A stretch of 55,498 nucleotides of DNA from Phaffia rhodozyma (taxonomy: Eukaryota; Basidiomycota; Tremellomycetes; Cystofilobasidiales; Mrakiaceae), in NCBI GenBank assembly GCA_014706385.1, contig JACGZH010000012.1, forward strand, positions 1-55,498, written 5' to 3'. The notes beneath the pieces are model-generated. The model was given only the letters and a program-made list of their open reading frames with translations. It searched no databases and had not been told where the DNA came from. Positions 2,545 to 18,086 of the stretch are shown in pieces (the first letter of the stretch is position 1; the number at the start of each line of letters is the position of its first letter). The position numbers and the translations under genes were made by a program.

Positions 2545-2615
2545 TTGCCAAGGCCCGTCTCGATCAGGCGACCTCCGGTTATGAGCCCGGCGCGCTTCCA
2601 CTGCGCTACTTGGCA
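2545..2615 (-). tRNA. Initiator tRNA-Met(CAT), unit 1
   Basis: Minus strand. Initiator marks: T loop ATCGAGA (A54 and A60 instead of T54 and pyrimidine 60), GGG:CCC in the anticodon stem (CCGGG/CCCGG), loop CTCATAA, no intron. The first pair is U1:A72 rather than the usual eukaryotic A1:U72, in all six units. This copy is one base short in the 3' anticodon stem (C lost). Confidence 0.9.
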
Positions 2616-2664
2616 TTGATGGGACCATGGCTGAGGAGTGTGTATGTGGTGTCGGCCGCAGGTC

Positions 2665-2803
2665 ACGTGCCGGTGTCGATGTCAGTGTCGACGTCAGTGT
2701 CGATGCCAGTGCCAGCACCAGTGTCGATGCCAGTGCCAGCACCAGTGTCGATGCCAGTGCCAACACCAGTGTCATTACCAATGCCAGTGTCAATGCCAGT
2801 CAC
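2665..2803. repeat. CAGTG minisatellite
   Basis: Degenerate repeat of CAGTGTCGATG/CAGTGCCAGCAC between initiator Met and Ile-AAT. The intergenic length is 254-256 bases in units 1-5 and 208 in unit 6, where repeats were lost. Confidence 0.85.
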
Positions 2804-2869
2804 ACCATCGACTGGTGCGACCGACGGTACACCTGGCCATGGTCTGCCGGGTGGGCCTGACAGTCATCG

Positions 2870-2943
2870 GATCGATTAGCTCAGTTGGTTAGAGCGTGGT
2901 GCTAATAACGCCAAGGTCGCGGGTTCGACCCCCTCATTGATCA
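2870..2943 (+). tRNA. tRNA-Ile(AAT), unit 1
   Basis: Intronless, 74 nt. Acceptor GATCGAT/ATTGATC, D stem GCTC/GAGC, anticodon stem TGGTG/CGCCA, loop CTAATAA, A73. A34 is presumably edited to inosine. T stem GCGGG/CCCTC has a C50:T64 mismatch in all units. Confidence 0.93.
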
Positions 2944-3199
2944 CTTTTTCTTTCTTTTTCTAATTTTCGCCATCTTTTTTTGCCATCTTTTTTGCACCCC
3001 TCCTGTTCTCGACCGTTGCGGTCTGTGTGGCATTGTTGTCGACTGGCACGCTCCATGGTGAGCGATGCAGTGTTGTGACGGTGTGACGATGTGGTGGTGC
3101 GGTGGCGACGATGGGAACGCAGATATACACCCGGCTGTGCTGGACAGTGTCCGACCAGACATGGGCCTATGGTGTCTGGGCTGGGCTGGGAGGCATCGT

Positions 3200-3286
3200 G
3201 CATGCTTGGTGTAGTGGTATCGCGCCATGTTAGGGTCTTTGCGCCTTGTCTCATGGAGGTCCTCAGTTCAATCCTGGGAGCGTGCC
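3200..3286 (+). tRNA. tRNA-Pro(AGG), intron, unit 1
   Basis: Acceptor GCATGCT/AGCGTGC, D stem GTG/CGC, anticodon stem CCATG/CATGG, loop TTAGGG, 15-nt intron containing CCT complementary to the anticodon, T stem CTCAG/CTGGG, C73. Eight T follow directly. Confidence 0.94.
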
Positions 3287-3496
3287 TTTTTTTTCCTTTT
3301 CCTTTCGTTCTTTGTTTCCTTTTCCCGAGCGCTTCCTGTCGCTCTTCGTTGTTTTCTGCCACTTTTCACTCACTTTTTGCCACTCTCCGCCACTTTCTCG
3401 GCAGCAGACAAGCGATGTGTGCACCCGGTGGAGACGTCTCTGACGCATGGACAAGCTGTCTGGACAAGTGTCTGGACACGGATGACAGCCATCAAG

Positions 3497-3568
3497 TCCT
3501 CAATTGTCTAACGGCTATGATAACCGCCTCTCACGCGGTAGGCCCGGGTTCGACTCCCGGTTGGGGAT
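3497..3568 (+). tRNA. tRNA-Glu(CTC), unit 1
   Basis: Intronless, 72 nt. Acceptor TCCTCAA/TTGGGGA, anticodon stem ACCGC/GCGGT, loop CTCTCAC, T stem CCGGG/CCCGG. Base 73 is U, whereas Glu-TTC has A73. Confidence 0.94.
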
Positions 3569-3802
3569 CTCTCTTTTGGTCTTTTCTTTTTCTTTGCTCT
3601 CGTTTCTTTTTTTTTCTTTTTCCTTGTCCTTCTTTCCTTTCGTCTTTCTGTTTCGTCTTGTTTTTGTATGTCCGTTCTGACCACTGGTATCAGCGCTGGT
3701 GTGTGCCTGCGGGTACTGTGTGGTTGAATGCACGGTATGGGGTGCATGCACCGGCCAGCTGTCCAGCCACCTGGCGAGCGGACAAGGCTGACATCAACCG
3801 AC

Positions 3803-3874
3803 TCTTGGATGGTCTAACGGTTATGATTTCCGCCTGTCACGCGGGAGACCGGGGTTCGACTCCCCGTCCGGGAG
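3803..3874 (+). tRNA. tRNA-Asp(GTC), unit 1
   Basis: Intronless, 72 nt. Acceptor TCTTGGA/TCCGGGA with G73 (the usual Asp base), anticodon stem TCCGC/GCGGG, loop CTGTCAC, T stem CGGGG/CCCCG. Five T follow at 3878. Confidence 0.95.
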
Positions 3875-4259
3875 CACTTTTTGCCTTTTGCTCCTCTCTT
3901 TTGTACTTGCATTTGTACTTGCATTTGCATTTGCATTTGCATTTGCATGCATTTGCATTTTTTCTTTCCATTCTCTTTTGCTGTACAGCTGTATGGTTGT
4001 CTTGCTTTGTTGTGTTTGTCCGTCGACGGCCATCGATCGTTATCTTTTTTTCTTTGGTCTGTATGTCTCCTTCTTTTTCTCTTTCTTTTTCTTTTGCTCT
4101 CTTTGACGGCGCATGTTTGGCAGCACACGCTCCGAAAGACGCACCGAGCACAGCACAGCACAGCACAGCACGCCGACACGTGTGCGCTGGGCAGACCAAC
4201 TGGCTGGATGGCTGTTGAGCACAGGCTATGGGCAGTCGATCGGCAGACCGAGACCATAC
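3875..4259. repeat. Long spacer: TTGCAT repeat, pyrimidine tract, GCACA repeat
   Basis: No gene seen. It holds a slipped TTGCAT/TTGTAC repeat (about 3902-3961), a C/T-rich tract (about 4045-4103) and an AGCAC repeat (about 4150-4172). Its length varies between units: 385, 387, 387, 378, 386 and 373 bases. Confidence 0.85.
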
Positions 4260-4342
4260 GCTGTCTTAATCAAGTGGTCTACGATGAGAGATTAGAAATC
4301 TCTTCCTCTTTGAGGGCGCAGGTTCGAATCCTGCAGACAGCT
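4260..4342 (+). tRNA. tRNA-Ser(AGA), unit 1
   Basis: Class II tRNA, intronless. Perfect acceptor GCTGTCT/AGACAGC, D stem ATC/GAT, anticodon stem AGAGA/TCTCT, loop TTAGAAA, long variable arm with CCTC/GAGG stem, T stem GCAGG/CCTGC. Base 73 is U, while eukaryotic Ser tRNAs, including Ser-CGA here, normally have G73. Confidence 0.92.
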
Positions 4343-4569
4343 TTCTTTTGCACCCTGTACTTTGCCACCGTGGCCTTTGCTCTTTTTGCTTTTTTTTTTC
4401 TCTTCTTCTCTTCTCTTCTATGCCTTTGCCTATGTGTGTCTATGGTTGTCGTTCATGTATGCATAGTACGCACACACCGGGCAGCCAGCCCAAACAAAAA
4501 AAAGACGGCCACACCATCGAAGCCATCCTCATCCTCACTGACACACAGCGAGGACCGGAAAAAAAGGGA

Positions 4570-4655
4570 TGCCGTCAGCCTGAATCGAACAGGCGACCTT
4601 ATGATTGCGGACAGATGTCTTCAGTCATACGCTCCACCAATTGAGCTATGACGGC
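4570..4655 (-). tRNA. tRNA-Phe(GAA), intron, unit 1
   Basis: Minus strand, perfect acceptor GCCGTCA/TGACGGC, D stem GCTC/GAGC, anticodon stem TATGA/TCATA, loop CTGAAG, 13-nt intron, T stem GCCTG/CAGGC, A73. Confidence 0.95.
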
Positions 4656-4849
4656 CGGTGACAGTCAGCGCCGTCCATCAGGCCATGGCCCGTCTGGGTG
4701 GCTGTCGGGCCGTCGGCCGTCCGGCTGGCACTCACTCGGTCGGTCTCAGCCGGGTCGGTGTGTGTGCTGACGCGGCAGGCAAAACATGCTGGGCACTGAC
4801 CGTCAGCGTGTGCTCTCTGAGTGCTCGGACACAGCAGGCGACCATCCCA

Positions 4850-4922
4850 TGCCCTGTAGCTCAGTTGGTAGAGCGTGGAGCTGTTAACTCCAAGGTCTAC
4901 GGTTCGAGCCCGTACGGGGCAG
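4850..4922 (+). tRNA. tRNA-Asn(GTT), unit 1
   Basis: Intronless, 73 nt. Acceptor TGCCCTG/CGGGGCA, D stem GCTC/GAGC, anticodon stem TGGAG/CTCCA, loop CTGTTAA, T stem TACGG/CCGTA, G73. A GTCTTTTT repeat follows. Confidence 0.95.
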
Positions 4923-4965
4923 TCTTTTTGTCGTCTTTTTGTCGTCTTTTTGTCGTCTTTTTGTC
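4921..4965. repeat. GTCTTTTT repeat 3' of Asn
   Basis: Four TCGTCTTTTT-type repeats directly after tRNA-Asn, doubling as a series of Pol III-type T-run terminators. Contracted in unit 6 (about 53160-53180). Confidence 0.8.
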
Positions 4966-5119
4966 TCCTCATTTTTTTTTTCTTTTCTCCCTTTTCCCTC
5001 TTTCCTGTGCAGTACTTCCCCTCTCGTCTTCTGCCGTCCATGAGGTGTGCGTGTTCTTGGTATGTTCTTGCGATGGACATCATCCATCTTCCACCAGCAT
5101 GCTCGGCCGGCAAGAAAAA

Positions 5120-5192
5120 AGGAGTCACCCGGGATTGAACCAGGGACCTGCTGGGTTGCAACCAGCCGCAACTACCGCTGTGCTATAACTCC
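5120..5192 (-). tRNA. tRNA-Cys(GCA), unit 1
   Basis: Intronless. Minus strand acceptor GGAGTTA/TGACTCC, D stem GCA/TGC, anticodon stem GCTGG/CCAGC, loop TTGCAAC, T stem CCTGG/CCGGG, U73 (the Cys identity base). Confidence 0.95.
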
Positions 5193-5377
5193 GTATGAGG
5201 CTGCCGCGCCATCGGACAGATCATCCACAGGCACGCTTGCACACATGCACACAGCACAGTGGCAGCCGCTTTGTCGTCCTGCGATCGAGTAGTGGCAGCT
5301 GTGGACGCAACATCGCCCGGTGCGACCAGGCCGGCGTCACAGATGCTGCATCTGCACAGAGAAAACAAAAGGAACAA

Positions 5378-5463
5378 AGGAGCAGAAAAAAGAACAGGAA
5401 AAAAGAGCAAGAAAAAAGAGCAAGAAAAAAGAGCAAGAAAAAAGAGCAAAAAGAACAAAAAGA
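5378..5463. repeat. AGCAAGAAAAA purine repeat
   Basis: A/G repeat between Cys and Val-AAC. On the minus strand it supplies T runs just downstream of the Val-AAC gene. Confidence 0.8.
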
Positions 5464-5464
5464 G

Positions 5465-5537
5465 TAGTCGCACCCAGAGTCGAACTGGGGTCGTGAGTGT
5501 GTTAGACTCAAGTGATAACCGTTACACCCATGCAACT
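5465..5537 (-). tRNA. tRNA-Val(AAC), unit 1
   Basis: Intronless. Minus strand acceptor AGTTGCA/TGCGACT, D stem GTG/CAC, anticodon stem TGAGT/ACTCA, loop CTAACAC, T stem CCCAG/CTGGG, A73. One extra G between acceptor and D stem in this copy. Confidence 0.92.
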
Positions 5538-5728
5538 CTGATGACTGCCGGTCTCTGCCCAGTATCCTACTCATCGACCAGGCACCGCTCGCTCCGCCGT
5601 CTGCCCGCCCGCCGCTGTGTGTCCATCGGTCGGCCGGCCCATCAGCCCGATCGTGCGACACCGGGACCATGCCTGCCGACAAGCTGGCCCTCAGACGAGG
5701 CAGCCCGGGGAGAAAACAAAAAGGATCG

Positions 5729-5801
5729 TTCCCCATCCGGGAGTCGAACCCGGGTCCTCAGCGTGAAAAGCTGATATCGTAAACCGTTTGACCAATGAGG
5801 A
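5729..5801 (-). tRNA. tRNA-Glu(TTC), unit 1
   Basis: Intronless. Minus strand acceptor TCCTCAT/ATGGGGA, anticodon stem TCAGC/GCTGA, loop TTTTCAC, T stem CCGGG/CCCGG, A73. Confidence 0.95.
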
Positions 5802-5828
5802 CTAGTACAAGCACGCCGAATCGGTCGA

Positions 5829-5863
5829 GTCGTCTGCAGTCGTCTGCAGTCGTGCGCAGTCGT
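5829..5863. repeat. GTCGTCTGCA repeat
   Basis: Short tandem repeat between Glu-TTC and Ala-TGC, conserved in all units. Confidence 0.7.
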
Positions 5864-5941
5864 GTGCAGCCTGCTCCGTCGTGCGGTAGGCTGTGAGCGG
5901 GTGGCCGCCGGTCAGCATGCTTCCGACCGGACGGCAAAAAG

Positions 5942-6013
5942 TGGACCCAGCAGGGATTGAACCCGCGGCCTTTCGCATGCAAAGCGAATGTGATACCACT
6001 ACACCATAAGCCC
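5942..6013 (-). tRNA. tRNA-Ala(TGC), unit 1
   Basis: Intronless. Minus strand acceptor GGGCTTA/TGGGTCC contains G3:U70, the Ala identity pair. Anticodon stem TTCGC/GCGAA, loop TTTGCAT, T stem GCGGG/CCTGC, A73. Confidence 0.95.
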
Positions 6014-6161
6014 GTGTGGGATGGAGGCGTGGTGTGTCGGCCGGTGGGGCGAAGTGCGGTGCGGTGCGGTGAGGTGCGGCGAGGTGAGGTCTGGTATGAT
6101 GCTATCAGAAACAGAGTCTTGGTTGCAAAACCACACGGAATCTCTCGGCGGGGGCAAAAGA

Positions 6162-6243
6162 TGAACAGAGGGGGATTCGAACCCCCGCATCTTGCGATAT
6201 CAGAACTTGAGTCTGACGCCTTAGACCGCTCGGCCATCTGTCC
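6162..6243 (-). tRNA. tRNA-Leu(CAA), unit 1
   Basis: Class II, intronless. Minus strand acceptor GGACAGA/TCTGTTC, D stem GCC/GGC, anticodon stem TCAGA/TCTGA, loop CTCAAGT, long variable arm, T stem GGGGG/CCCCC, A73. Leu-CAA often has an intron in other eukaryotes; none here. Confidence 0.94.
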
Positions 6244-6269
6244 GGATGGGGTGCGTGAGGTGTGTGTGG

Positions 6270-6302
6270 GTGCGGGAGTGTGCGGGAGTGTGCGGGAGTG
6301 TG
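6270..6302. repeat. GTGCGGGAGT repeat
   Basis: Three copies here; two or three in other units, between Leu-CAA and Arg-CCT. Confidence 0.8.
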
Positions 6303-6340
6303 GGCCGGGTAGAGCGAGTGCACCCTGCCCGGGCACACAC

Positions 6341-6426
6341 GCCCCGTTGGCAGAATGGTAACGCGTCTCCTTCCTACTGTCTGGTGAGAGAGGTGAAGAT
6401 TCTGGGTTCAATCCCCAGGCGGGGTT
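6341..6426 (+). tRNA. tRNA-Arg(CCT), intron, unit 1
   Basis: Acceptor GCCCCGT/GCGGGGT (G1:U72 wobble), weak D stem, anticodon stem TCTCC/GGTGA with a T29:T41 mismatch, loop TTCCTA, 14-nt intron, T stem CTGGG/CCCAG, U73. The mismatch is present in all units. Confidence 0.88.
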
Positions 6427-6448
6427 TCTCTTTTTTTGCGGCGGGCGT

Positions 6449-6505
6449 GGTTGGGGTGTGAGTGGGGTGTGAGTGGGGTGTGGTGGTGTGAGTGAGAAGG
6501 TGGGT
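6449..6505. repeat. GGGGTGTGAGT repeat
   Basis: G/T-rich repeat after Arg-CCT. Copy number and register differ in every unit; longest in unit 6 (about 54625-54720). Confidence 0.8.
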
Positions 6506-6610
6506 GAGAATGTGGGTGTACACGTGAGACGCTTGGTATGCTGGCGGGCTGTAGAGTGTGCACTGTATGCGCAGGGTATAGGACTGATGTATGTGGACCC
6601 TCCCATCAAC

Positions 6611-6682
6611 GGGATGTTCGTATAATGGTTATTATTCCAGATTTCCATTCTGGAGACAGGTGTTCGATTCACCTACATCTCA
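6611..6682 (+). tRNA. tRNA-Gly(TCC), unit 1
   Basis: Intronless, 72 nt. Acceptor GGGATGT/ACATCTC, anticodon stem CCAGA/TCTGG, loop TTTCCAT, T stem AGGTG/CACCT, A73. Confidence 0.94.
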
Positions 6683-6848
6683 TTTTTGTCATTTTTTTTT
6701 TGCGCGTGGCGGGGGCGGAGGCGGTGGCAGTACAAGACACTGGGCGGACGGCGGCAAGACTCTGAGGCACACGACCGGGGCGTGGGAGGGGCTAGTTGGG
6801 TGGCGGCGTTGGTGTCTAGGGGTACGGGCCGGGCTGGGGACTATAACC

Positions 6849-6942
6849 GCCCTGTTAGCTCAATCGGTAGAGCGTCAGACTCTTACCCAGTCTCTTGACA
6901 GTTGGCATCTGAAGGCTGGGGGTTCGACCCCCCCATGGGGCT
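6849..6942 (+). tRNA. tRNA-Lys(CTT), intron, unit 1
   Basis: Acceptor GCCCTGT/ATGGGGC, D stem GCTC/GAGC, anticodon stem TCAGA/TCTGA, loop CTCTTA, 21-nt intron, T stem GGGGG/CCCCC, U73. The only Lys gene; no Lys-TTT. Confidence 0.93.
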
Positions 6943-6975
6943 AGCTTCGTTTTTGTGTGTGTGGTGTGATTTTTT

Positions 6976-7003
6976 GTTTTCTGTTTCTGTTTCTGTTTCT
7001 GTT
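6976..7003. repeat. CTGTTT microsatellite
   Basis: CTGTTT repeat after Lys-CTT; two to four copies depending on the unit. Confidence 0.75.
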
Positions 7004-7168
7004 TTCGTTCTTTGTGTTTTTGTTTGCTGGCTTGGTGTGCGCTTGGTGGGCCGTCGACGGTGGAAGGGTGCATGGAGGGTTGAACAGAGGTGAGAGGTGG
7101 GTCGGCTGGTGGGTCGCGCGGGCATGTCTGACGATCTGGGCTGGTAGCACGGACAGACAGACACACAC

Positions 7169-7241
7169 GGGGATTTAGCTCAGTTGGCAGAGCGCAATCT
7201 TAGCATGGTTGAGGTCGTGAGTTCGATTCTTACAATCTCCA
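7169..7241 (+). tRNA. tRNA-Ala(AGC), unit 1
   Basis: Intronless. Acceptor GGGGATT/AATCTCC with G3:U70, D stem GCTC/GAGC, anticodon stem CAATC/GGTTG, loop TTAGCAT, T stem GTGAG/CTTAC, A73. Confidence 0.95.
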
Positions 7242-7452
7242 CTTTTTTGTGTCGTTTTTATGTGTTTTTTGTGTTTTTTGGTAGTCTTTTTTTTTTTTTT
7301 TCCGCCCGCTGCCTTTTTTGCACTCTCTTCTTTCGCTCTGCTCCTCTCGGTCATGCTCCGTCCTGCCCACCACATCACACACCATGTGTTGCACCGAGAC
7401 AGGCCGGCTGCTGCGAGCACACTGGCCGACCGGCCGGACAGGCCTTCATCCA

Positions 7453-7545
7453 GGTGAGGTGGCCGAGTGGTCTAAGGCGCTGTGTTAAGGCTCTTTCTAT
7501 GCCCCGCAGTCAGTAATGGCGCGAGTTCGAATCTCGCCCTCATCA
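7453..7545 (+). tRNA. tRNA-Leu(AAG), intron, unit 1
   Basis: Class II. Acceptor GGTGAGG/CCTCATC, D stem GCC/GGC, anticodon stem CTGTG/CGCAG, loop TTAAGG, 13-nt intron containing CTT complementary to the anticodon, variable arm TCAGTAATGGC, T stem GCGAG/CTCGC, A73. Exons nearly identical to Leu-TAG at 8267..8365. Confidence 0.94.
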
Positions 7546-7716
7546 CTTTTTGTCCGGCCGGCACGGGCCGTGCCTCTCGGGTCTGCCTGGCCGGGCTGTG
7601 CTCTCAGGTGCGGTGCCATGGTAGTATGATGCCACGTTGCAACACTGCCACACCCCCTTGCTGTCTGCCGGTCCGTTTTGGACTGTGGACTGAATGAACA
7701 GACCGTACAGCATCCA

Positions 7717-7787
7717 ACAGCTGTGGTGAAATGGTATCATTGGTGCTTGCCATGCACTAGGCCGGGGTTCGATTCCCCGCGGTTGTA
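7717..7787 (+). tRNA. tRNA-Gly(GCC), unit 1
   Basis: Intronless, 71 nt. Acceptor ACAGCTG/CGGTTGT (A1:U72), anticodon stem GGTGC/GCACT, loop TTGCCAT, T stem CGGGG/CCCCG, A73. Confidence 0.94.
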
Positions 7788-7978
7788 TCCTTTTTTTTTC
7801 TCGTCCCACACACCGATCGGCTCTGTGCTGGCGGGTGCACATCTGCCGATCGTCCGTGTTCGGTCTCGCCGGCTGGTGCGATGATGGTGTGTGCTGCCGT
7901 TCGGACGAGCAGTGCGTCTGTGCCGACACAGGGGCAGGACACGAAGGACGTACCGACGCGCTCGGTGGACACCAACCG

Positions 7979-8051
7979 TCCTTCTTAGCTCAGTTGGTAG
8001 AGCGCGACACTAGTAATGTCGAGGTCAGTCGTTCAAATCGGCTAGCAGGAA
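7979..8051 (+). tRNA. tRNA-Thr(AGT), unit 1
   Basis: Intronless. Acceptor TCCTTCT/AGCAGGA with a T5:C68 mismatch in all units, D stem GCTC/GAGC, anticodon stem CGACA/TGTCG, loop CTAGTAA, T stem AGTCG/CGGCT, A73. Confidence 0.93.
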
Positions 8052-8176
8052 CATTCTTCTTTTTTTTTATTCTCCGTTCATTTCCGTTCATTTCTTCTTC
8101 TTCTTTTTCTGTTGTATCCTTCCCTGTCGTCCCGGCGGGCGTCTGGTCGACGCGTGCTCGTTAGGGTTCCGCACAA

Positions 8177-8250
8177 AGCACAGCACCACACCACACCACA
8201 CACCACACACACACAACACACACAAACACACCACAAACAACACCACAAAC
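8177..8250. repeat. CACCACA repeat
   Basis: Short repeat between Thr-AGT and Leu-TAG, with variable copy number among units. Confidence 0.8.
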
Positions 8251-8266
8251 GCAGGGAAAGCATGCT

Positions 8267-8365
8267 GGTGAAGTGGCCGAGTGGTCTAAGGCGCTGTGTT
8301 TAGGTCTCTCTTCCGAGTCCAGACCGCAGTCAGTAATGGCGCGAGTTCAAATCTCGTCTTCATCA
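8267..8365 (+). tRNA. tRNA-Leu(TAG), intron, unit 1
   Basis: Class II. Acceptor GGTGAAG/CTTCATC, anticodon stem CTGTG/CGCAG, loop TTTAGG, 19-nt intron, variable arm identical to Leu-AAG, T stem GCGAG/CTCGT, A73. Probably a duplicate of Leu-AAG with a changed anticodon and unrelated intron. Confidence 0.94.
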
Positions 8366-8399
8366 TTCCTTTTGTCCCGGCCGGGGGGGCAGGGCAGCT

Positions 8400-8481
8400 G
8401 GGGATTTAGGCTAGTTGGTAAACTGGACGCTTCGCACTGTCGATCATGTGTCATTCCTGGGTTCGATTCCCGGAGTCTCCA
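8400..8481 (+). tRNA. tRNA-Ala(CGC), intron, unit 1
   Basis: Acceptor GGGGATT/AGTCTCC with G3:U70. D stem is imperfect (C12:A23). Anticodon stem GACGC/GTGTC, loop TTCGCA, 10-nt intron, T stem CTGGG/CCCGG, A73. Confidence 0.9.
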
Positions 8482-8643
8482 TCTCTTTTTGGTGTGTTTC
8501 GGTGTGTGTTTGTTTTATCTTGGCGTATTTGATTTCGTTGCATTTCATATGGCATGTTGTGTGTCGTGTTGTGTCTGTGTGTCTTCTCTTGGTCTGCTGC
8601 CCACCGGCTTGTGCTCACCGCTCACCGAGCGGCGTCCATCCAA

Positions 8644-8753
8644 GGCCGTTTGGCGGAGTGGTCTAACGCGGTAGCCTCGAACGAGTCCCCTCTGTGGGAC
8701 GACGCGACAGCTACTCTTCTCTGAAGGCGTAGGTTCAAATCCTACAGCGGTCG
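8644..8753 (+). tRNA. tRNA-Ser(CGA), intron, unit 1
   Basis: Class II, 110 nt. Acceptor GGCCGTT/AGCGGTC, D stem GCG/CGC, anticodon stem GTAGC/GCTAC, loop CTCGAA, 28-nt intron with its own CCC/GGG hairpin, long variable arm, T stem GTAGG/CCTAC, G73. Confidence 0.94.
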
Positions 8754-8895
8754 TCCTTTCTCTTTTTCTTTTTGCCCACTTCCGTTCTCTCTGCCTTCTG
8801 TCGCGTCGATCCTTCCTTGCTGTCTGTGTTTGCTGTCTCCGCATGCTCACACCCCGCCAGGCAGACAGACAGACGGGCTGACGGGCTGCCATCGT

Positions 8896-8989
8896 GCGTG
8901 ATTGGTGTAGTGGTATCACGCCAAGTTTGGGCACACTTTCTGCCGTGCACATCTCTTGGAGGTCTTCGGTTCAATCCCGGAATCGCGCC
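8896..8989 (+). tRNA. tRNA-Pro(TGG), intron, unit 1
   Basis: Acceptor GCGTGAT/ATCGCGC, D stem GTG/CAC, anticodon stem CCAAG/CTTGG, loop TTTGGG, 22-nt intron, T stem TTCGG/CCGGA, C73. Confidence 0.94.
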
Positions 8990-9495
8990 TTTTTGTTCGG
9001 CCCGTCTGGGCGGGTGGCGTGGTCGGTGTAGGGTTACTTGCTGTGTCAGTTGCTGTGTTACTTGCTGTGCTACTCATAGGATTACCCGCCACATAGCGTC
9101 CGCTGTTACCCTATGCTGTGTACTCTTTTTTTTTTTTCTTTTTTCTTTTTCCTCTCCCGTTTTTTCTTTGTCCTTTTTCTTTCCTCTTTTTTCCTCTTTT
9201 TTCCTCTTTTTTCCCTTCTTTTTTCCCTTCTTTTTCCCCCTCTTTTTTCCCCTCTTTTCCCTTCTTTTCCCTCTTTTCCTTTTTTTCTTCTTTTTTCTTC
9301 TTTTTTTTCTTCTTTTTTTTCTGTCAACGATAGATGCATCAATATAGAAAGAGAAAAAGACATATGGCAGAAAGACAACAGCATAACAATGGCAACACAG
9401 TAAAAACATAGCGAGAACACAACGAGAACACAACCATGCAATGCAATGCACCAGCAACACAGTGTCAACACAACAGAAAGACCAAAACAAAAGAA
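8990..9495. other. Long spacer before Arg-ACG: hairpin and pyrimidine tract
   Basis: No gene seen. It begins with TTGCTGTGT repeats inside an inverted repeat (TAGGGTTAC at 9029, GTTACCCTA at 9105), then a nearly pure T/C tract (about 9121-9331), then A-rich sequence with AACACAACGAG repeats. Gene-to-gene length differs between units: 517, 527, 457, 507 and 459 bases, mostly from the T/C tract. Confidence 0.8.
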
Positions 9496-9506
9496 GGCAA
9501 AGATCC

Positions 9507-9603
9507 TCGTAGTCAGACGCCTTACCGCTGGGCCACTCGGCCAGAGCGAATGGGTGGTGGGACCACTAGACCAAGACGGGGTTCGAACCCGCGATTTCCT
9601 GAT
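9507..9603 (-). tRNA. Circularly permuted tRNA-Arg(ACG), unit 1
   Basis: On the minus strand the 3' half comes first (9603 down to 9568: A38, TCAGG, AAATC, T arm GCGGG-TTCGAAC-CCCGT, CTTGGTC, U73), then 25 nt of linker (9567-9543), then the 5' half (9542 down to 9507: GGCCGAG, TG, D arm GCC/GGC, G26, TCTGA, CTACGA). Joined this way the acceptor pairs 7/7 (with G:U), the anticodon stem 5/5, and U73 matches the other Arg tRNAs. The breakpoint is at 37/38, the normal intron site. The 5' leader GGCAAAGAT (9651-9643) and 3' trailer ATCTTTGCC (9504-9496) are perfectly complementary, and leader TCGT can pair with ACGA of the anticodon loop, as in a bulge-helix-bulge splice substrate. Read colinearly, no cloverleaf forms. 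The B box precedes the A box. TTTT follows on the minus strand (9492-9489). Confidence 0.9.
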
Positions 9604-9836
9604 GCATACAAGCTGGCAGCCGGCCATGACGACCGTTCCACCATCTTTGCCTTTAGCTTTCGTCTGGTTGTGTGGATGTATGGCCAAGTGGATGTGTGGG
9701 CGTTGGCTCTGCTAGGGTTATCCGAGGCGGTGGGCGTCCGGCCGATCCGTCCGATCGCCCATCGGATATCGGACGTCGGACGTCGGACGTCGAGCCCCGG
9801 AGTACGGAGCCCGGCGGAGAAAAGGCCGTGTCGATC

Positions 9837-9920
9837 GGTCGCCTGGTCTAGTGGTATGACGCTTGCTTCACATCTCACCCGGTGCGCAATAGGTCGCCAG
9901 TTCGATCCTGGCGGTGACCA
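9837..9920 (+). tRNA. tRNA-Val(CAC), intron, unit 2
   Basis: Intact copy of the gene at 116..202: full acceptor GGTCGCC/GGTGACC, A73, 12-nt intron. Confidence 0.92.
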
Positions 9921-10140
9921 TGACGTCTTTTTGCCCTCAGCACACGCCCACGATGGACAGACCGAGAGAAGCCATCGCAAGATAAGATGCATGATAAGAT
10001 ACACAGCCAGCCGACAGAGATGGCAGATAAGATCGACAGACACGATCGATCGGCAAGAAAGAAAGAAGATAAGATGGCGATAAAGACAAAAGACAAAAGA
10101 CAAAAGATACAAGATAAAAGCCAGGTCGGCAAAAAGACAA

Positions 10141-10240
10141 GGCGCGATCCCGGGATTGAACCGAGGACCTCCGTCAGACACGTGTTTCATGCGAGCCAGC
10201 AAAGCCCGAAGACGGCGTGATACCACTACACCAATCCCGC
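10141..10240 (-). tRNA. tRNA-Pro(CGG), intron, unit 2
   Basis: Full-length 100-nt copy with a 28-nt intron; G4:G69 mismatch kept. Confidence 0.92.
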
Positions 10241-10318
10241 CAGTGATCGCACAGGCCTGGCCGGTCAGTTTGTCGGTCTCCAGCCGGCCGTCCGTCCGTC
10301 CGTCCGGGAGGCAAAAGA

Positions 10319-10416
10319 TACTCCATATGAGGTTCGAACTCATGATCCTTGTTAAGCACTAGAGGCACGGACGGCAACCTATAAGAACAATGCGATAACC
10401 ACTTCGCCAATGGAGT
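10319..10416 (-). tRNA. tRNA-Ile(TAT), intron, unit 2
   Basis: 98-nt copy with 25-nt intron, without the extra G seen in unit 1. Confidence 0.93.
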
Positions 10417-10589
10417 AAAGGTAAGCGTCGGTGGAAAAAGACGAGACATGACAAGACAGGACGAGACAGGACGAGACAGGACGAGAGAAGGCCGCACCGG
10501 ACGGCACACGCCAGACCGGGCCGAGTCCGACAGAAGACGGCACAGGCGGCAGGAGGGAGGACGGGAAAAAGAGGGCGAAAAAAAAGGAA

Positions 10590-10672
10590 AGGTCCTACTC
10601 AGATTCGAACTGGGGATTCGAGAAGGTGAGTCAATCAGAATCTCGCGTGATAACCAACTTCACCATAGAACC
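10590..10672 (-). tRNA. tRNA-Gln(CTG), intron, unit 2
   Basis: Same as the unit 1 gene, 83 nt. Confidence 0.92.
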
Positions 10673-10866
10673 GGTCGTTGTCGGCCTATTGCCCTCGCGA
10701 GTCTCGTTCCGGCGGTGTGTCCGCTGGCAAGGGTCCGTCGGCGCGTGTCCGCTGGCAGGTGTGCTTACATCGCTGGCCGACCTGTCCGCCCGCCGCACGT
10801 GGCCCGGCCGGCATGACACGCACGGCCGACCCGATACACACAGCGCGGACATCGGAGCAAAAAGCA

Positions 10867-10939
10867 AGCCCAAACGCGGATTTGAACCACGGACCTCACC
10901 GTTACGAGCGGCGCACTATAACCACTTAGCTATTCGGGT
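10867..10939 (-). tRNA. tRNA-Thr(CGT), unit 2
   Basis: Base 1 is A instead of G (t at 10939), breaking the first acceptor pair; the rest is intact. Confidence 0.85.
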
Positions 10940-11095
10940 CGGTGCCTGTCCCGTCGCCCGGTCGTGTTGTCTCTAAGGGTGTTGGTGTGTCGATGTGTTG
11001 TGTGTACCGGTGTGGTCAGGACCCGGCCCACACCGTCCGCTCGGCCAGACGTAGCCCATCGAGGTCGACCGCCGGGGCGGCTGGGCAGTCAACGT

Positions 11096-11182
11096 GCCTG
11101 GGTAGTTTAGTGGTAAAACGTAGGTCTCATACCGTCACCCGAGTGTGATCCTCAGCCGCGAGTTCGATTCTCGCTCTGGGCA
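11096..11182 (+). tRNA. tRNA-Met(CAT), elongator, intron, unit 2
   Basis: Intact 87-nt copy with G1 and a 16-nt intron. Confidence 0.9.
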
Positions 11183-11424
11183 ACTCTTTTTTTTCCTCTT
11201 TTGCTGTGTTTCCCATCCTTCCTGATGGTTGGTGGGCGGCCGGGCTGGGCCAGGCGGAGGTGCGGTCGGATCCGGCCGTCAGATGGGCTGAGCATGACGG
11301 CAGTGGAAGTGGCGGCGGTGGCGGTGGCGGTGGCGTCGGCAGTGCTGATGACGACGACGACTGCTGCTGCGCAGAGTCCGCTTGGACGAGAATCTATCCG
11401 GACAAACGGTGCTGGCACCATACC

Positions 11425-11511
11425 CGCCGCTTAGCTCATCTGGAAGAGCGTTGGTTTGTAAAGGATACACTTGTTCACCGAAGGCACTCGGTTCGATCCC
11501 GAGAGCGGCGA
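11425..11511 (+). tRNA. tRNA-Tyr(GTA), intron, unit 2
   Basis: Identical structure to 1689..1775, 14-nt intron. Confidence 0.95.
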
Positions 11512-11732
11512 TCTTGTTTTTTTGCCTTTTGCTTTTTGTTCTTTTTTGTTCTTTTTTTCTGCCTTGTGGCTGCTTCCTCTTTGACTGCTAGGGTTCCTGC
11601 CTTCGGTCCAGTCCGGTCGCTCTCACGCAGCATGCGCACTGTCTCGGCCAGACGGGCGATGCGACCGATGACGTTCTCCCAGCTGCTGCTGCCGATGTAG
11701 TGGTCACCGGGGCAGGGCAAGCGATCATATCT

Positions 11733-11831
11733 GGCCGATTGGTGTAGTGGCTATCACAGCAGTTTTCGGTACTCGTCCGCAAGGTCGTCTTCGCTCGCTG
11801 CTGGTCGTCGGTTCGATCCCGACATCGGTCT
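11733..11831 (+). tRNA. tRNA-Arg(TCG), intron, unit 2
   Basis: 99 nt, 26-nt intron, normal four-T run before CGG. Confidence 0.92.
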
Positions 11832-12045
11832 AAATGTTCACTTTTTGTGTCCCCCTTTCTTTTTTGCCCTCCTTTTTGCCCTTCTTTTTCTCTGCACGCT
11901 CTCTCTGCACTCTGTTTCTATCGGCCGTTGTGTGGGTCACTGTCTGTCCGACCGGTCTGGCCTGTGTGCGCGTGTCCACCACGGTCGAGCCAGGTCGACA
12001 CAGCTCCCTGTGGTGGGGCAGGCAGACGGGCGGGAAAACAAAAAA

Positions 12046-12119
12046 AGACCCATACCCGACTTGAACGGATGACCTCAAGATTTGGAATCTTGCGCTGCTA
12101 CCAACTGAGCTAATGGGTC
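12046..12119 (-). tRNA. tRNA-Trp(CCA), unit 2
   Basis: Full 74-nt copy with perfect acceptor GACCCAT/ATGGGTC and U73. Confidence 0.94.
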
Positions 12120-12276
12120 GCTTGCCCGGGGCCTCCGTGCCCAGAGGGTATGTCGAGCGCCCGGCTGGCTGGCCGTACAGACGGTGGCACCATGCGGCCG
12201 GCTTGCAGGCCTCCAGCACGGACGGCCGGACGGGGGCCAGGGAAAAAACCGAGGGAAAACGAGCAAAAAGACAATG

Positions 12277-12348
12277 TTGCCAAGGCCCGTCTCGATCAGG
12301 CGACCTCCGGGTTATGAGCCCGGCGCGCTTCCACTGCGCTACTTGGCA
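12277..12348 (-). tRNA. Initiator tRNA-Met(CAT), unit 2
   Basis: Intact 72-nt copy: CCGGG/CCCGG stem, A54 and A60, U1:A72. Confidence 0.95.
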
Positions 12349-12604
12349 TTGATGGGAGACCATGGCTGAGGAGTGTGTATGTGGTGTCGGCCGCAGGTCA
12401 CGTGCCGGTGTCGATGTCAGTGTCGACGTCAGTGTCGATGCCAGTGCCAGCACCAGTGTCGATGCCAGTGCCAGCACCAGTGTCGATGCCAGTGCCAACA
12501 CCAGTGTCATTACCAATGCCAGTGTCAATGCCAGTCACACCATCGACTGGTGCGACCGACGGTACACCTGGCCATGGTCTGCCGGGTGGGCCTGACAGTC
12601 ATCG

Positions 12605-12678
12605 GATCGATTAGCTCAGTTGGTTAGAGCGTGGTGCTAATAACGCCAAGGTCGCGGGTTCGACCCCCTCATTGATCA
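12605..12678 (+). tRNA. tRNA-Ile(AAT), unit 2
   Basis: Same as the unit 1 gene, 74 nt. Confidence 0.93.
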
Positions 12679-12933
12679 CTTTTTCTTTCTTTTTCTAATT
12701 TTCGCCATCTTTTTTTGCCATCTTTTTTGCACCCCTCCTGTTCTCGACCGTTGCGGTCTGTGTGGCATTGTTGTCGACTGGCACGCTCCATGGTGAGCGA
12801 TGCAGTGTTGTGACGGTGTGACGATGTGGTGGTGCGTGGCGACGATGGGAACGCAGATATACACCCGGCTGTGCTGGACAGTGTCCGACCAGACATGGGC
12901 CTATGGTGTCTGGGCTGGGCTGGGAGGCATCGT

Positions 12934-13020
12934 GCATGCTTGGTGTAGTGGTATCGCGCCATGTTAGGGTCTTTGCGCCTTGTCTCATGGAGGTCCTCAG
13001 TTCAATCCTGGGAGCGTGCC
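12934..13020 (+). tRNA. tRNA-Pro(AGG), intron, unit 2
   Basis: Same as the unit 1 gene, 15-nt intron. Confidence 0.94.
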
Positions 13021-13229
13021 TTTTTTCCTTTTCCTTTCGTTCTTTGTTTCCTTTTCCCGAGCGCTTCCTGTCGCTCTTCGTTGTTTTCTGCCACTTTTCA
13101 CTCACTTTTTGCCACTCTCCGCCACTTTCTCGGCAGCAGACAAGCGATGTGTGCACCCGGTGGAGACGTCTCTGACGCATGGACAAGCTGTCTGGACAAG
13201 CTGTCTGGACACGGATGACAGCCATCAAG

Positions 13230-13301
13230 TCCTCAATTGTCTAACGGCTATGATAACCGCCTCTCACGCGGTAGGCCCGGGTTCGACTCCCGGTTGGGGA
13301 T
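13230..13301 (+). tRNA. tRNA-Glu(CTC), unit 2
   Basis: Same as the unit 1 gene, 72 nt. Confidence 0.94.
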
Positions 13302-13530
13302 CTCTCTTTTGGTCTTTTCTTTTGCTCTCGTTTCTTTTTTTCTTTTTTCCTTGTCCTTCTTTCCTTTCGTCTTTCTGTTTCGTCTTGTTTTTGTATGTCC
13401 GTTCTGACCACTGGTATCAGCGCTGGTGTGTGCCTTCGGGTACTGTGTGGTTGAATGCACGGTATGGGGTGCATGCACCGGCCAGCTGTCCAGCCACCTG
13501 GCGAGCGGACAAGGCTGACAATCAACCGAC

Positions 13531-13601
13531 TCTTGGATGGTCTAACGGTTATGATTTCCGCCTGTCACGCGGGAGACCGGGGTTCGACTCCCCGTCCGGA
13601 G
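13531..13601 (+). tRNA. tRNA-Asp(GTC), unit 2
   Basis: One G is missing from the 3' acceptor strand (TCCGGA instead of TCCGGGA), so the acceptor stem is shortened by one pair. Confidence 0.85.
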
Positions 13602-13988
13602 CACTTTTTGCCTTTTGCTCCTCTCTTTTGTACTTGCATTTGTACTTGCATTTGCATTTGCATTTGCATTTGCATCTGCATTTGCATTTTTTCTTTCCAT
13701 TCTCTTTTGCTGTACAGCTGTATGGTTGTCTTGCTTTGTTGTGTTTGTCCGTCGACGGCCATCGATCGTTATCTTTTTTTCTTTGGTCTGTATGTCTCCT
13801 TCTTTTTCTCTTTCTTTTTCTTTTGCTCTCTTTGACGGCGCATGTTTGGCAGCACACGCTCCGAAAGACGCACCGAGCACAGCACAGCACAGCACAGCAC
13901 GCCGACACGTGTGCGCTGGGCAGACCAACTGGCTGGATGGCTGTTGAGCACAGGCTATGGGCAGTCGATCGGCAGACCGAGACCATAC
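13602..13988. repeat. Long Asp-Ser spacer, unit 2
   Basis: No gene. Same TTGCAT, pyrimidine and AGCAC repeats as 3875..4259; one TTGCAT copy reads CTGCAT. Confidence 0.8.
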
Positions 13989-14071
13989 GCTGTCTTAATC
14001 AAGTGGTCTACGATGAGAGATTAGAAATCTCTTCCTCTTTGAGGGCGCAGGTTCGAATCCTGCAGACAGCT
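13989..14071 (+). tRNA. tRNA-Ser(AGA), unit 2
   Basis: Same as the unit 1 gene; U73. Confidence 0.92.
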
Positions 14072-14292
14072 TTCTTTTGCACCCTGTACTTTGCCACCGT
14101 GGCCTTTGCTCTTTTTGCTTTTTTTTTTCTTCTTCTTCTCTTCTATGCCTTTGCCTATGTGTGTCTATGGTTGTCGTTCATGTATGCATAGTACGCACAC
14201 ACCGGGCAGCCAGCCCAAACAAAAAAAAGACGGCCACACCATCGAAGCCATCCTCACTGACACACAGAGCGAGGACCGGAAAAAAAAAGGGA

Positions 14293-14378
14293 TGCCGTCA
14301 GCCTGAATCGAACAGGCGACCTTATGATTGCGGACAGATGTCTTCAGTCATACGCTCCACCAATTGAGCTATGACGGC
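14293..14378 (-). tRNA. tRNA-Phe(GAA), intron, unit 2
   Basis: Same as the unit 1 gene, 13-nt intron. Confidence 0.95.
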
Positions 14379-14573
14379 CGGTGACAGTCAGCGCCGTCCA
14401 TCAGGCCATGGCCCGTCTGGGTGGCTGTCGGGCCGTCGGGCCGTCCGGCTGGCACTCACTCGGTCGGTCTCAGCCGGGTCGGTGTGTGTGCTGACGCGGC
14501 AGGCAAAACATGCTGGGCACTGACCGTCGGCGTGTGCTCTCTGAGTGCTCGGACACAGCAGGCGACCATCCCA

Positions 14574-14646
14574 TGCCCTGTAGCTCAGTTGGTAGAGCGT
14601 GGAGCTGTTAACTCCAAGGTCTACGGTTCGAGCCCGTACGGGGCAG
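14574..14646 (+). tRNA. tRNA-Asn(GTT), unit 2
   Basis: Same as the unit 1 gene. Confidence 0.95.
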
Positions 14647-14831
14647 TCTTTTTGTCGTCTTTTTGTCGTCTTTTTGTCGTCTTTTCGTCTCCTCATTTTT
14701 TTTCCCTCTCCCTTTCCTGTGCAGTACTTCCCCTCTCGTCTTCTGCCGTCCATGAGGTGTGCGTGTTCTTGGTATGTTCTTGCGATGGACATCATCCATC
14801 TTCCACCAGCATGCTCGGCCGGCAAGAAAAA

Positions 14832-14904
14832 AGGAGTCACCCGGGATTGAACCAGGGACCTGCTGGGTTGCAACCAGCCGCAACTACCGCTGTGCTATAA
14901 CTCC
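14832..14904 (-). tRNA. tRNA-Cys(GCA), unit 2
   Basis: Same as the unit 1 gene, U73. Confidence 0.95.
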
Positions 14905-15176
14905 GTATGAGGCTGCCGCGCCATCGGACAGATCATCCACAGGCACGCTTGCACACATGCACACAGCACAGTGGCAGCCGCTTTGTCGTCCTGCGATCGA
15001 GTAGTGGCAGCTGTGGACGCAACATCGCCCGGTGCGACCAGGCCGGCGTCACAGATGCTGCATCTGCACAGAGAAAACAAAAGGAACAAAGGAGCAGAAA
15101 AAAGAACAGGAAAAAAGAGCAAGAAAAAAGAGCAAGAAAAAAGAGCAAGAAAAAAGAGCAAAAAGAACAAAAAGAG

Positions 15177-15248
15177 TAGTCGCACCCAGAGTCGAACTGG
15201 GGTCGTGAGTGTGTTAGACTCAAGTGATAACCGTTACACCATGCAACT
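15177..15248 (-). tRNA. tRNA-Val(AAC), unit 2
   Basis: 72-nt copy without the extra G of unit 1. Confidence 0.94.
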
Positions 15249-15439
15249 CTGATGACTGCCGGTCTCTGCCCAGTATCCTACTCATCGACCAGGCACCGCT
15301 CGCTCCGCCGTCTGCCCGCCCGCCGCTGTGTGTCCATCGGTCGGCCGGCCCATCAGCCCGATCGTGCGACACCGGGACCATGCCTGCCGACAAGCTGGCC
15401 CTCAGACGAGGCAGCCCGGGGAGAAAACAAAAAGGATCG

Positions 15440-15512
15440 TTCCCCATCCGGGAGTCGAACCCGGGTCCTCAGCGTGAAAAGCTGATATCGTAAACCGTTT
15501 GACCAATGAGGA
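15440..15512 (-). tRNA. tRNA-Glu(TTC), unit 2
   Basis: Same as the unit 1 gene. Confidence 0.95.
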
Positions 15513-15652
15513 CTAGTACAAGCACGCCGAATCGGTCGAGTCGTCTGCAGTCGTCTGCAGTCGTGCGCAGTCGTGTGCAGCCTGCTCCGTCGTGCGGTAG
15601 GCTGTGAGCGGGTGGCCGCCGGTCAGCATGCTTCCGACCGGACGGCAAAAAG

Positions 15653-15724
15653 TGGACCCAGCAGGGATTGAACCCGCGGCCTTTCGCATGCAAAGCGAAT
15701 GTGATACCACTACACCATAAGCCC
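15653..15724 (-). tRNA. tRNA-Ala(TGC), unit 2
   Basis: Same as the unit 1 gene; G3:U70 present. Confidence 0.95.
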
Positions 15725-15872
15725 GTGTGGGATGGAGGCGTGGTGTGTCGGCCGGTGGGGCGAAGTGCGGTGCGGTGCGGTGAGGTGCGGCGAGGTGAGG
15801 TCTGGTATGATGCTATCAGAAACAGAGTCTTGGTTGCAAAACCACACGGAATCTCTCGGCGGGGGCAAAAGA

Positions 15873-15954
15873 TGAACAGAGGGGGATTCGAACCCCCGCA
15901 TCTTGCGATATCAGAACTTGAGTCTGACGCCTTAGACCGCTCGGCCATCTGTCC
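15873..15954 (-). tRNA. tRNA-Leu(CAA), unit 2
   Basis: Same as the unit 1 gene. Confidence 0.94.
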
Positions 15955-16042
15955 GGATGGGGTGCGTGAGGTGTGTGTGGGTGCGGGAGTGTGCGGGAGT
16001 GTGGGCGGGTAGAGCGAGTGCACCCTGCCCGGGCACACACAC

Positions 16043-16128
16043 GCCCCGTTGGCAGAATGGTAACGCGTCTCCTTCCTACTGTCTGGTGAGAGAGGTGAAG
16101 ATTCTGGGTTCAATCCCCAGGCGGGGTT
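16043..16128 (+). tRNA. tRNA-Arg(CCT), intron, unit 2
   Basis: Same as the unit 1 gene, 14-nt intron. Confidence 0.88.
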
Positions 16129-16314
16129 TCTCTTTTTTTGCGGCGGGCGTGGTTGGGGTGTGAGTGGGGTGTGAGTGGGGTGTGAGTGAGTGTGAGTGAG
16201 AAGGTGGGTGAGAATGTGGGTGTACACGTGAGACGCTTGGTATGCTGGCGGGCTGTAGAGTGTGCACTGTATGCGCAGGGTATAGGACTGATGTATGTGG
16301 ACCCTCCCATCAAC

Positions 16315-16386
16315 GGGATGTTCGTATAATGGTTATTATTCCAGATTTCCATTCTGGAGACAGGTGTTCGATTCACCTACATCTCA
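16315..16386 (+). tRNA. tRNA-Gly(TCC), unit 2
   Basis: Same as the unit 1 gene. Confidence 0.94.
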
Positions 16387-16551
16387 TTTTTGTCATTTTT
16401 TTTTTTGCGCGTGGCGGGGGCGGAGGCGGGCAGTACAAGACACTGGGCGGACGGCGGCAAGACTCTGAGGCACACGACCGGGGCGTGGGAGGGGCTAGTT
16501 GGGTGGCGGCGTTGGTGTCTAGGGGTACGGGCCGGGCTGGGGACTATAACC

Positions 16552-16645
16552 GCCCTGTTAGCTCAATCGGTAGAGCGTCAGACTCTTACCCAGTCTCTTG
16601 ACAGTTGGCATCTGAAGGCTGGGGGTTCGACCCCCCCATGGGGCT
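16552..16645 (+). tRNA. tRNA-Lys(CTT), intron, unit 2
   Basis: Same as the unit 1 gene, 21-nt intron. Confidence 0.93.
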
Positions 16646-16873
16646 AGCTTCGTTTTTGTGTGTCGGTGTGATTTTTTTTTCTTTTCTGTTTCTGTTTCTG
16701 TTTCTGTTTTCGTTCTTTGTGTTTTTGTTTGCTGGCTTGGTGTGCGCTTGGTGGGCCGTCGACGGTGGAAGGGTGCATGGAGGGTTGAACAGAGGTGAGA
16801 GGTGGGTCGGCTGGTGGGTCGCGCGGGCATGTCTGACGATCTGGGCTGGTAGCACGGACAGACAGACACACAC

Positions 16874-18052: not shown

Positions 18053-18086
18053 TTCCTTTTGTCCCGGCCGGGGGGGCAGGGCAGCT

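Follow-up and report, generated by a model that had tools for sequence, protein, structure and literature searches.

How can a tRNA gene whose 3′ half lies upstream of its 5′ half give rise to a tRNA in a fungus, and how might such an arrangement have come about? The question is raised by a locus of Phaffia rhodozyma (Basidiomycota, Tremellomycetes, Cystofilobasidiales; NCBI) that an earlier note on this DNA had described as a circularly permuted tRNA-Arg(ACG) gene. It lies in a stretch of 55,498 nucleotides, here called the window, which is contig C4 of a 19.77-Mb assembly of 15 contigs. We consider it very likely that the locus is a working permuted tRNA-Arg(ACG) gene, probably the only gene for this tRNA and present in 44 array copies. 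Its most likely origin is the tandem duplication of a tRNA gene with an intron, after which the outer halves decayed but stayed recognizable.

Read along the minus strand (9651 to 9496), a tRNA-Arg(ACG) shows its 3′ half first and its 5′ half second, with a linker between them, and the two halves are enclosed by a leader and a trailer:

9496..9651, minus: whole permuted tRNA-Arg(ACG) unit, 156 nt (leader, 3′ half, linker, 5′ half, trailer)
9604..9651, minus: leader, 48 nt, readable as a degenerate tRNA 5′ half plus a 10-nt intron
9645..9651, minus: outer acceptor 5′ strand GGCAAAG, inside the leader
9633..9643, minus: A box of the leader, TGGTGGAACGG, 54 nt upstream of the B box
9614..9619, minus: putative relict anticodon loop of the leader, CTGCCA, positions 32-37, which would read GCC (hand reading)
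9604..9613, minus: putative relict intron GCTTGTATGC, the final 10 nt of the leader (constrained fold)
9568..9603, minus: 3′ half of tRNA-Arg(ACG), A38 to U73, 36 nt
9579..9589, minus: B box GGTTCGAACCC, in the T arm (T stem 5/5)
9543..9567, minus: linker between the acceptor ends, 25 nt, without a run of four T
9507..9542, minus: 5′ half of tRNA-Arg(ACG), G1 to A37, 36 nt, with its own A box TGGCCCAGCGG
9496..9506, minus: trailer GGATCTTTGCC, 11 nt, its final 7 nt readable as an acceptor 3′ strand, with the T at 9495 next
9489..9492, minus: TTTT, a pol III terminator by its motif

The order that had been claimed, with the 3′ half before the 5′ half on the minus strand and a 25-nt linker, was borne out both by direct reading and by ARAGORN run on the joined halves. 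Joined, they form a 72-nt tRNA that the program calls tRNA-Arg(acg), and when the trailer plus leader are set as an intron it returns the identical tRNA-Arg(acg) with a 59-nt intron at 37-38. The cloverleaf is complete: the acceptor stem has 7/7 pairs (two G.U), the anticodon stem 5/5 (one G.U) and the T stem 5/5 (one G.U), the consensus bases U8, A14, G18G19, U33 and the TTC of the T loop are present, and both halves keep their tertiary-pair bases and complementary stems. U73 matches two other Arg genes read in the array unit, Arg(TCG) at 11733 and Arg(CCT) at 16043, the former of which was labeled Glu(TTC) by our script and was re-read on the strength of U73, the acceptor stem and another possible anticodon stem. 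The acceptor and anticodon stems, U73 and the join at 37/38 are thus confirmed as the earlier note gave them. The T arm, GGGGTTCGAACCC, is nearly palindromic (9577-9593 and 9576-9592), and for this reason a B-box match is found on both strands.

In its native order the locus is called as nothing by ARAGORN, which lists 188 genes in the window but none here, and among the best 150 of 152 Rfam matches there is no tRNA above the gathering score at the permuted locus. A strict scanner for permuted tRNAs, a check that had been proposed together with the original reading, found four matches in the window, which are the four intact copies of the gene, against 1 match in total over 60 dinucleotide shuffles of the window. 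Several hallmarks of a permuted tRNA gene are in place, namely a 3′ half upstream on the same strand, a 25-nt intervening sequence without T4 and a T stretch downstream. A needed tRNA can escape the standard tRNA finders, and permuted order explains how.

Several intron-bearing colinear genes of the unit are misnamed by ARAGORN (6341-6426, 8399-8483, 9837-9920 and 11733-11831), and hand re-reading gives them as Arg(CCT), Ala(CGC), Val(CAC) and Arg(TCG).

Tandem arrays and the search for a colinear gene

The locus is one of five in the window, all within a tandem array of tRNA genes:

1..55498, no strand assigned: tandem array with a period of about 9.5-9.7 kb, each unit with 33 colinear tRNA genes and the permuted one
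19200..19354 (about), minus: second permuted copy, one base missing in the D-arm; ends inferred from halves at 19211-19245 and 19271-19306
28836..28991, minus: third permuted copy (genome match)
38499..38654, minus: fourth permuted copy (genome match)
48101..48256, minus: fifth permuted copy (genome match)

The genome has 44 places with the anticodon arm of this gene, all of them in tandem tRNA arrays (C4 5, C5 4, C6 4, C7 2, C9 3, C10 4, C11 3, C12 3 and C13 16). Both halves are shown at 43 of the 44, the evidence for the place at C13:1328863 being limited to a 12-base match. When the 156-nt unit was matched to the genome, 39 of the best 40 (of 44) matches were 100% identical and one was 99%. 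Identity among copies is no proof of selection, because the array copies are homogenized, and we dropped copy conservation as evidence of function: the flanking stretches are also nearly invariant, and the comparison is uninformative because 30 of the 34 aligned copies had been chosen as top matches from a homogenized array. The copies in the window differ mostly by one-base homopolymer changes (for example at 19211-19245), perhaps through long-read assembly error, perhaps as real variation.

The array extends to the end of the contig in each of C9-C13, five long contigs, and the permuted gene points inward in 5/5 of them, a constant polarity that would be predicted if the arrays are terminal but not if assembly had broken an internal one. 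TTAGGG-type repeats start contigs C8 and C15, and a short stretch of them starts C1. No array is present in the first 5 kb of C1, C2, C3, C8, C14 and C15, and no telomere repeat was seen beyond the array. We infer that the arrays are subtelomeric.

Several other observations concern the surroundings of the arrays and the contig ends. At the array edges (L043 and L042), 6.1 kb inside the C10 and C11 arrays are 98.6% identical, and shorter stretches of these edges are common to C13 and C9, as in duplicated subtelomeres. Directly behind the telomere repeats at the start of C8 is a reverse transcriptase frame (PF00078; L048:3-2705) that may belong to a telomere-associated retroelement, and similar sequence is found at the starts of C14 and C2 (L049 and the start of L046). 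Next to the C12 array, a 792-aa frame matches a Phaffia rhodozyma protein with 100% identity along its full length; next to the C11 array, another frame has just two matches, both from Phaffia rhodozyma (85% and 65% identical). These matches point to P. rhodozyma or a very close relative as the host.

Is the permuted gene the only source of tRNA-Arg(ACG)? A colinear tRNA-Arg(ACG) in the genome was among the observations that the earlier note had named as counting against it. We looked for one by pattern and by sequence and found none, with the proviso that the pattern searches need an intron of at most ~30 nt and near-canonical motifs, so that a strongly diverged colinear gene could escape them. 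An anticodon-loop/T-arm pattern for Arg(ACG), allowing an intron to ~30 nt, gave 47 matches in the genome, none of which is a colinear Arg(ACG): the array Ser(AGA) gene accounts for 40, and of the 7 at other places ARAGORN calls one Lys(TTT) and the remaining six nothing. All 42 genome matches of an A-box/anticodon pattern are array copies of the permuted gene, and GTCTGRCTACGR has 48 matches in the genome, 44 of them array copies and the other 4 giving no tRNA. The 72-nt mature sequence, in the best 40 of 44 candidates, matches as two 36-nt pieces in reversed order or as one piece, and in none of them contiguously.

Such a tRNA would have codons to read. CGU (17) and CGC (10) together contribute 27 of the 1805 codons counted over five open frames, some of them not verified as coding, and RSCU values of 0.30/0.51 for CGU and 0.25/0.29 for CGC are given in passages of PMC4404019. 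No other anticodon of the array set reads CGU or CGC by standard wobble. By hand count the array supplies 33 anticodons. The usual eukaryotic set is 45, which leaves 12 beyond the array, and the dispersed genes that we met (His(GTG) twice, Leu(CAG) and Lys(TTT)) are all among those 12. A short-read P. rhodozyma assembly contained 49 dispersed tRNAs of only 12 anticodon species (PMC5103461), an agreement that is suggestive only because the passage names none of its 12. The tRNA set looks divided between arrays (a unit being, for example, 9837-18683) and single genes.

The strongest objection to a working gene is that the locus is a dead by-product, in which case the halves would never be joined, CGU and CGC would be read by an Arg(ACG) gene that was missed or is unassembled, and homogenization would keep the dead unit identical from copy to copy. 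Copy identity is indeed also what homogenization predicts, and the gene searches were limited to introns of ~30 nt and near-canonical motifs, with the best 40 of 44 candidates scored. However, the stems of both halves are still complementary, the tertiary-pair bases are kept, the terminator is in place and an A-B promoter is present, and the genome searches found no other Arg(ACG) gene. We regard a dead locus as improbable; structure, motifs and the lack of a detected alternative argue that the permuted gene is probably functional.

Leader and trailer as possible remains of a second tRNA gene

What is new here is that both flanks resemble tRNA parts: the leader can be read as a tRNA 5′ half in degenerate form, and the trailer could pass for the 3′ strand of an acceptor stem. 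In order, the leader has the acceptor strand GGCAAAG, the A box, a 4-pair D stem, GCCGG, the loop CTGCCA and 10 nt up to A38, which is the size of a small intron, those of the array being about 10-28 nt. With its 4/4 D stem it passes a tRNA 5′-half grammar that is passed by 27 of 33 real 5′ halves and by 5 of 200,000 shuffled leaders. Outside the annotated genes, 5 of the 9528 48-mers of the unit pass the same grammar, and these are only the Arg 5′ half and the leader; an A-box-like 11-mer is found in 0 of 192 spacer 48-mers. The best match to the leader among the 34 5′ halves of the unit is Asp(GTC), with 23 of 32 bases in an ungapped alignment that stops at position 37, and its score was equaled in 10 of 1000 shuffles and 1 of 804 spacer 48-mers, so the leader may derive from a different tRNA gene. 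Local alignment gave no support for homology between the leader and the Arg 5′ half of the same locus, being no better than shuffles (856 of 2000), and alignment of the upstream sequence plus leader with the linker plus 5′ half was also no better than shuffles (462 of 2000).

The trailer ends in CTTTGCC, followed by a T and then by a T run. GGCAAAG of the leader pairs 7/7 with this CTTTGCC and 6/7 with CTTGGTC of the 3′ half; taken together, the outer strands pair 7/7, the inner strands 7/7 and the two crosswise combinations 6/7 and 6/7. One compensatory change separates the two acceptor stems, A4-U69 outside and C4-G69 inside, and crosswise pairing is therefore always broken at pair 4. The perfect 9-bp leader/trailer complementarity that had been pointed out before, GGCAAAGAT/ATCTTTGCC, is exact, and 9 bp were reached by 6 of 20,000 shuffles of leader and trailer.

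Could the leader, and not the downstream Arg 5′ half, be the true partner of the 3′ half? The real gene would then be colinear, made up of the leader 5′ half, the 10-nt intron and the 3′ half, with anticodon GCC, and the Arg(ACG) 5′ half downstream would be dead. The leader has all the parts of a 5′ half, its acceptor pairing to the 3′ half reaches 6/7, and a weak Rfam tRNA-Sec match (18.6 bits, E 0.19) spans exactly the leader and the 3′ half. However, this score is far under the gathering score of 47, the anticodon stem GCCGG/TCAGG pairs at 3/5 positions only, the acceptor has an A.G mismatch, one extra base lies between acceptor and D-arm, and a normal Gly(GCC) gene is present in the array unit at 17413-17483. 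With an acceptor of 6/7, an anticodon stem of 3/5 and no call by ARAGORN, the leader plus 3′ half was rejected as a colinear intron-containing tRNA gene, and we think this reading very unlikely.

Returning to the permuted gene, the proposal that the leader is left over from a duplicate gene stands on the 5′-half grammar, the acceptor strands and the Asp-like match. Together these suggest, as the simplest account, two tandem tRNA genes of which the inner halves would come to form the tRNA and the outer halves would have decayed yet still pair, and the reading of leader and trailer fits a fossil of tandem duplication. A duplication-and-loss model for the origin of permuted tRNAs is described by Soma (2014; PMC3978253). 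We lean, by a little, toward a more specific interpretation, that the locus is a preserved intermediate in the birth of a permuted tRNA, in which two tandem genes swapped partners and the outer halves still work, the upstream one providing the pol III A box and both together a second, compensated acceptor stem that would clamp the ends of the transcript for splicing.

Junction geometry and the proposed transcription and processing

The leader A box lies 54 nt from the B box, compared with 42-81 nt in the colinear genes (the 27 of 33 with a recognized A box); beyond the B box come three further 11-mers that resemble an A box, including the one in the 5′ half. These positions suggest that the leader A box and the B box of the 3′ half could offer pol III an A-then-B promoter in normal order. 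T4 occurs 0-10 nt after 33/33 colinear genes and 0-7 nt after the trailer in 5/5 window copies, where it is 11-18 nt after A37, and it occurs nowhere within the stretch from leader to A37. This placement, after the trailer and not inside, makes a single pol III transcript of ~160 nt likely.

Two further readings bear on the transcript. In a split tRNA the halves would come from two transcripts and be joined in trans, as the box element in each half might allow, but there is no run of four T between the halves, a single terminator follows the trailer and the 9-bp clamp sits on one 156-nt unit; we give this reading even less credence than the colinear one. The tRNA-like module of YrlA has the T arm before the D arm, as the permuted locus does, and Rfam YrlA (RF02553) is the second match here (9501-9614, 18.0 bits, E 0.18), but with a gathering score of 69, a flanking YrlA stem that is not formed in the alignment and joined halves that make a complete tRNA, a YrlA-type regulatory RNA in place of a tRNA is barely credible.

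For the permuted gene we propose that RNA polymerase III would use the leader A box and the 3′-half B box and would stop at the T run past the trailer. The transcript would fold with an outer 9-bp leader/trailer clamp and an inner cloverleaf that the 3′ half, lying upstream, and the 5′ half, lying downstream, would form together. Next, the tRNA splicing endonuclease would cut after A37 and before A38, a Trl1-type ligase would join A37 to A38 to give a 97-nt circle, and RNase P and RNase Z would remove the 25-nt linker, with CCA added afterward. Cutting, ligation to a circle, removal of the linker and CCA addition form a pathway shown for algae in the passages of PMC3978253. At this locus it is from sequence that we infer transcription, cutting, the circle and charging, as well as the history of duplication.

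Homologs of the enzymes are present in the genome. An endonuclease-domain match on C11 (38.9 bits) spans a stop, probably an intron, and one on C10 has 26.6 bits, or 27.4 with its neighbors, at a cut-off of 27; in a Pfam scan the C10 frame did not reach the cut-off (25.4 bits), and the C11 frame, used in a structure-sequence search, matched Sen2 at no better than E 0.027. Because these matches are weak, the names Sen2 and Sen34 are provisional. The T4-type (fungal-type) tRNA ligase on C8 is clear, at 134 bits. A protein search with the ligase gave no Phaffia sequence among the 120 of 195 matches listed, and full-length ligases probably fall beyond the length range it covers.

As modeled, the geometry of the junction is the weak point of the working-gene reading. 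A bulge-helix-bulge formed by TCGT and ACGA had been predicted; the pairing is possible, but it is probably not the helix that is used, TCGT being ~25 nt from the splice site. In a fold constrained to the cloverleaf the anticodon pairs with UUGUA, adjoining A38, instead of TCGT, and the final 10 nt of the leader, GCTTGTATGC, pair with the Arg anticodon loop. The constrained fold has at the junction C32-G(-2), a 6-bp helix and a 9-bp helix, and it is not the minimum-energy fold. Its A-I pair is one base off, C32 pairing with G at -2, and -3 is here a U. At -3 a purine is found in 14 of 16 array introns, the 16 being derived from 17 rows after Ser(AGA), intronless in ARAGORN, was dropped and one row was re-read as Arg(TCG).

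Folding of the precursor, which had also been proposed, gave a mixed answer: the cloverleaf with its 9-bp clamp forms under constraint at -53.0, whereas the minimum, at -62.6, lies 9.6 kcal/mol lower and is not a cloverleaf, and minimum-energy folding was dropped as support for the permuted reading. Among 16 colinear genes with introns the same gap is 0-6.5 in 15, and it reaches 13.2 in one Met gene, where the script may have misplaced the stems; the comparison is rough because the colinear genes were constrained without the D stem.

Permuted genes and tRNA arrays in other lineages

To our knowledge no permuted tRNA gene has been known from a fungus. Among the literature matches listed, whose coverage lies outside most subscription papers, there is none on a fungal permuted tRNA, a Phaffia tRNA array or large fungal array units. 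A fungal case would extend the distribution of permuted tRNAs to the lineage of animals and fungi, and in a culturable yeast close to the model yeasts. The passages of Soma (2014; PMC3978253) tabulate 34 permuted genes from six algae and one archaeon, at least 17 of them with the junction at 37/38, with intervening sequences of 1-74 nt and with Arg(ACG) absent from the table. The cases known so far come from a handful of algae, one nucleomorph and a single archaeon.

The review by Soma raises two questions, whether permuted tRNAs are an ancient form or the product of late duplication, and what promoter they use. If the outer remnants at the Phaffia locus are real, they would be direct sequence evidence for duplication followed by loss, and they would also give a simple answer as to how pol III can read a permuted gene. 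Should the partner-swap reading be true, a permuted tRNA could be transcribed from an ordinary internal promoter and so could arise in any eukaryote with tRNA introns.

As to the arrays, the tRNA genes of Entamoeba also lie in long tandem head-to-tail arrays, for which a location at chromosome ends has been proposed, but with units of up to 5 tRNA genes compared with 34 in Phaffia; it is a likeness that implies no relationship, and the term “permuted” is absent from that text (PMC2652664). In the green alga Auxenochlorella (2025), as in Phaffia, permuted tRNA genes were overlooked by a standard tRNA finder, and the passages give them no array context, unlike the Phaffia gene (PMC12633428).

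Further parallels are found in other algae, as given in passages of PMC3978253. Cyanidioschyzon merolae has the same gene order as Phaffia, and its circular intermediate has been shown by experiment, but its junctions vary and an upstream TATA-like element has been proposed in place of A/B boxes, whereas the Phaffia gene has a normally ordered A-B promoter (PMC3978253). The type II genes of prasinophyte green algae and the Bigelowiella nucleomorph share with Phaffia the upstream 3′ half, the junction at 37/38, a linker (5-64 nt in theirs), a downstream T stretch and intronless halves (PMC3978253). The Phaffia gene differs from them in being fungal, in coding for Arg(ACG), in its 44 array copies, in a leader with an A box and a whole 5′-half reading, and in an anticodon-intron pair that is one base off (PMC3978253). 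The permuted tRNA-Cys of Ostreococcus lucimarinus likewise has a leftover half next to it, which has been interpreted as an intermediate in a process of duplication and loss (PMC3978253). In Ostreococcus the 5′ half is followed downstream by the extra one, whereas in Phaffia the additional 5′ half would lie upstream and an acceptor remnant downstream, the two pairing with each other (PMC3978253).
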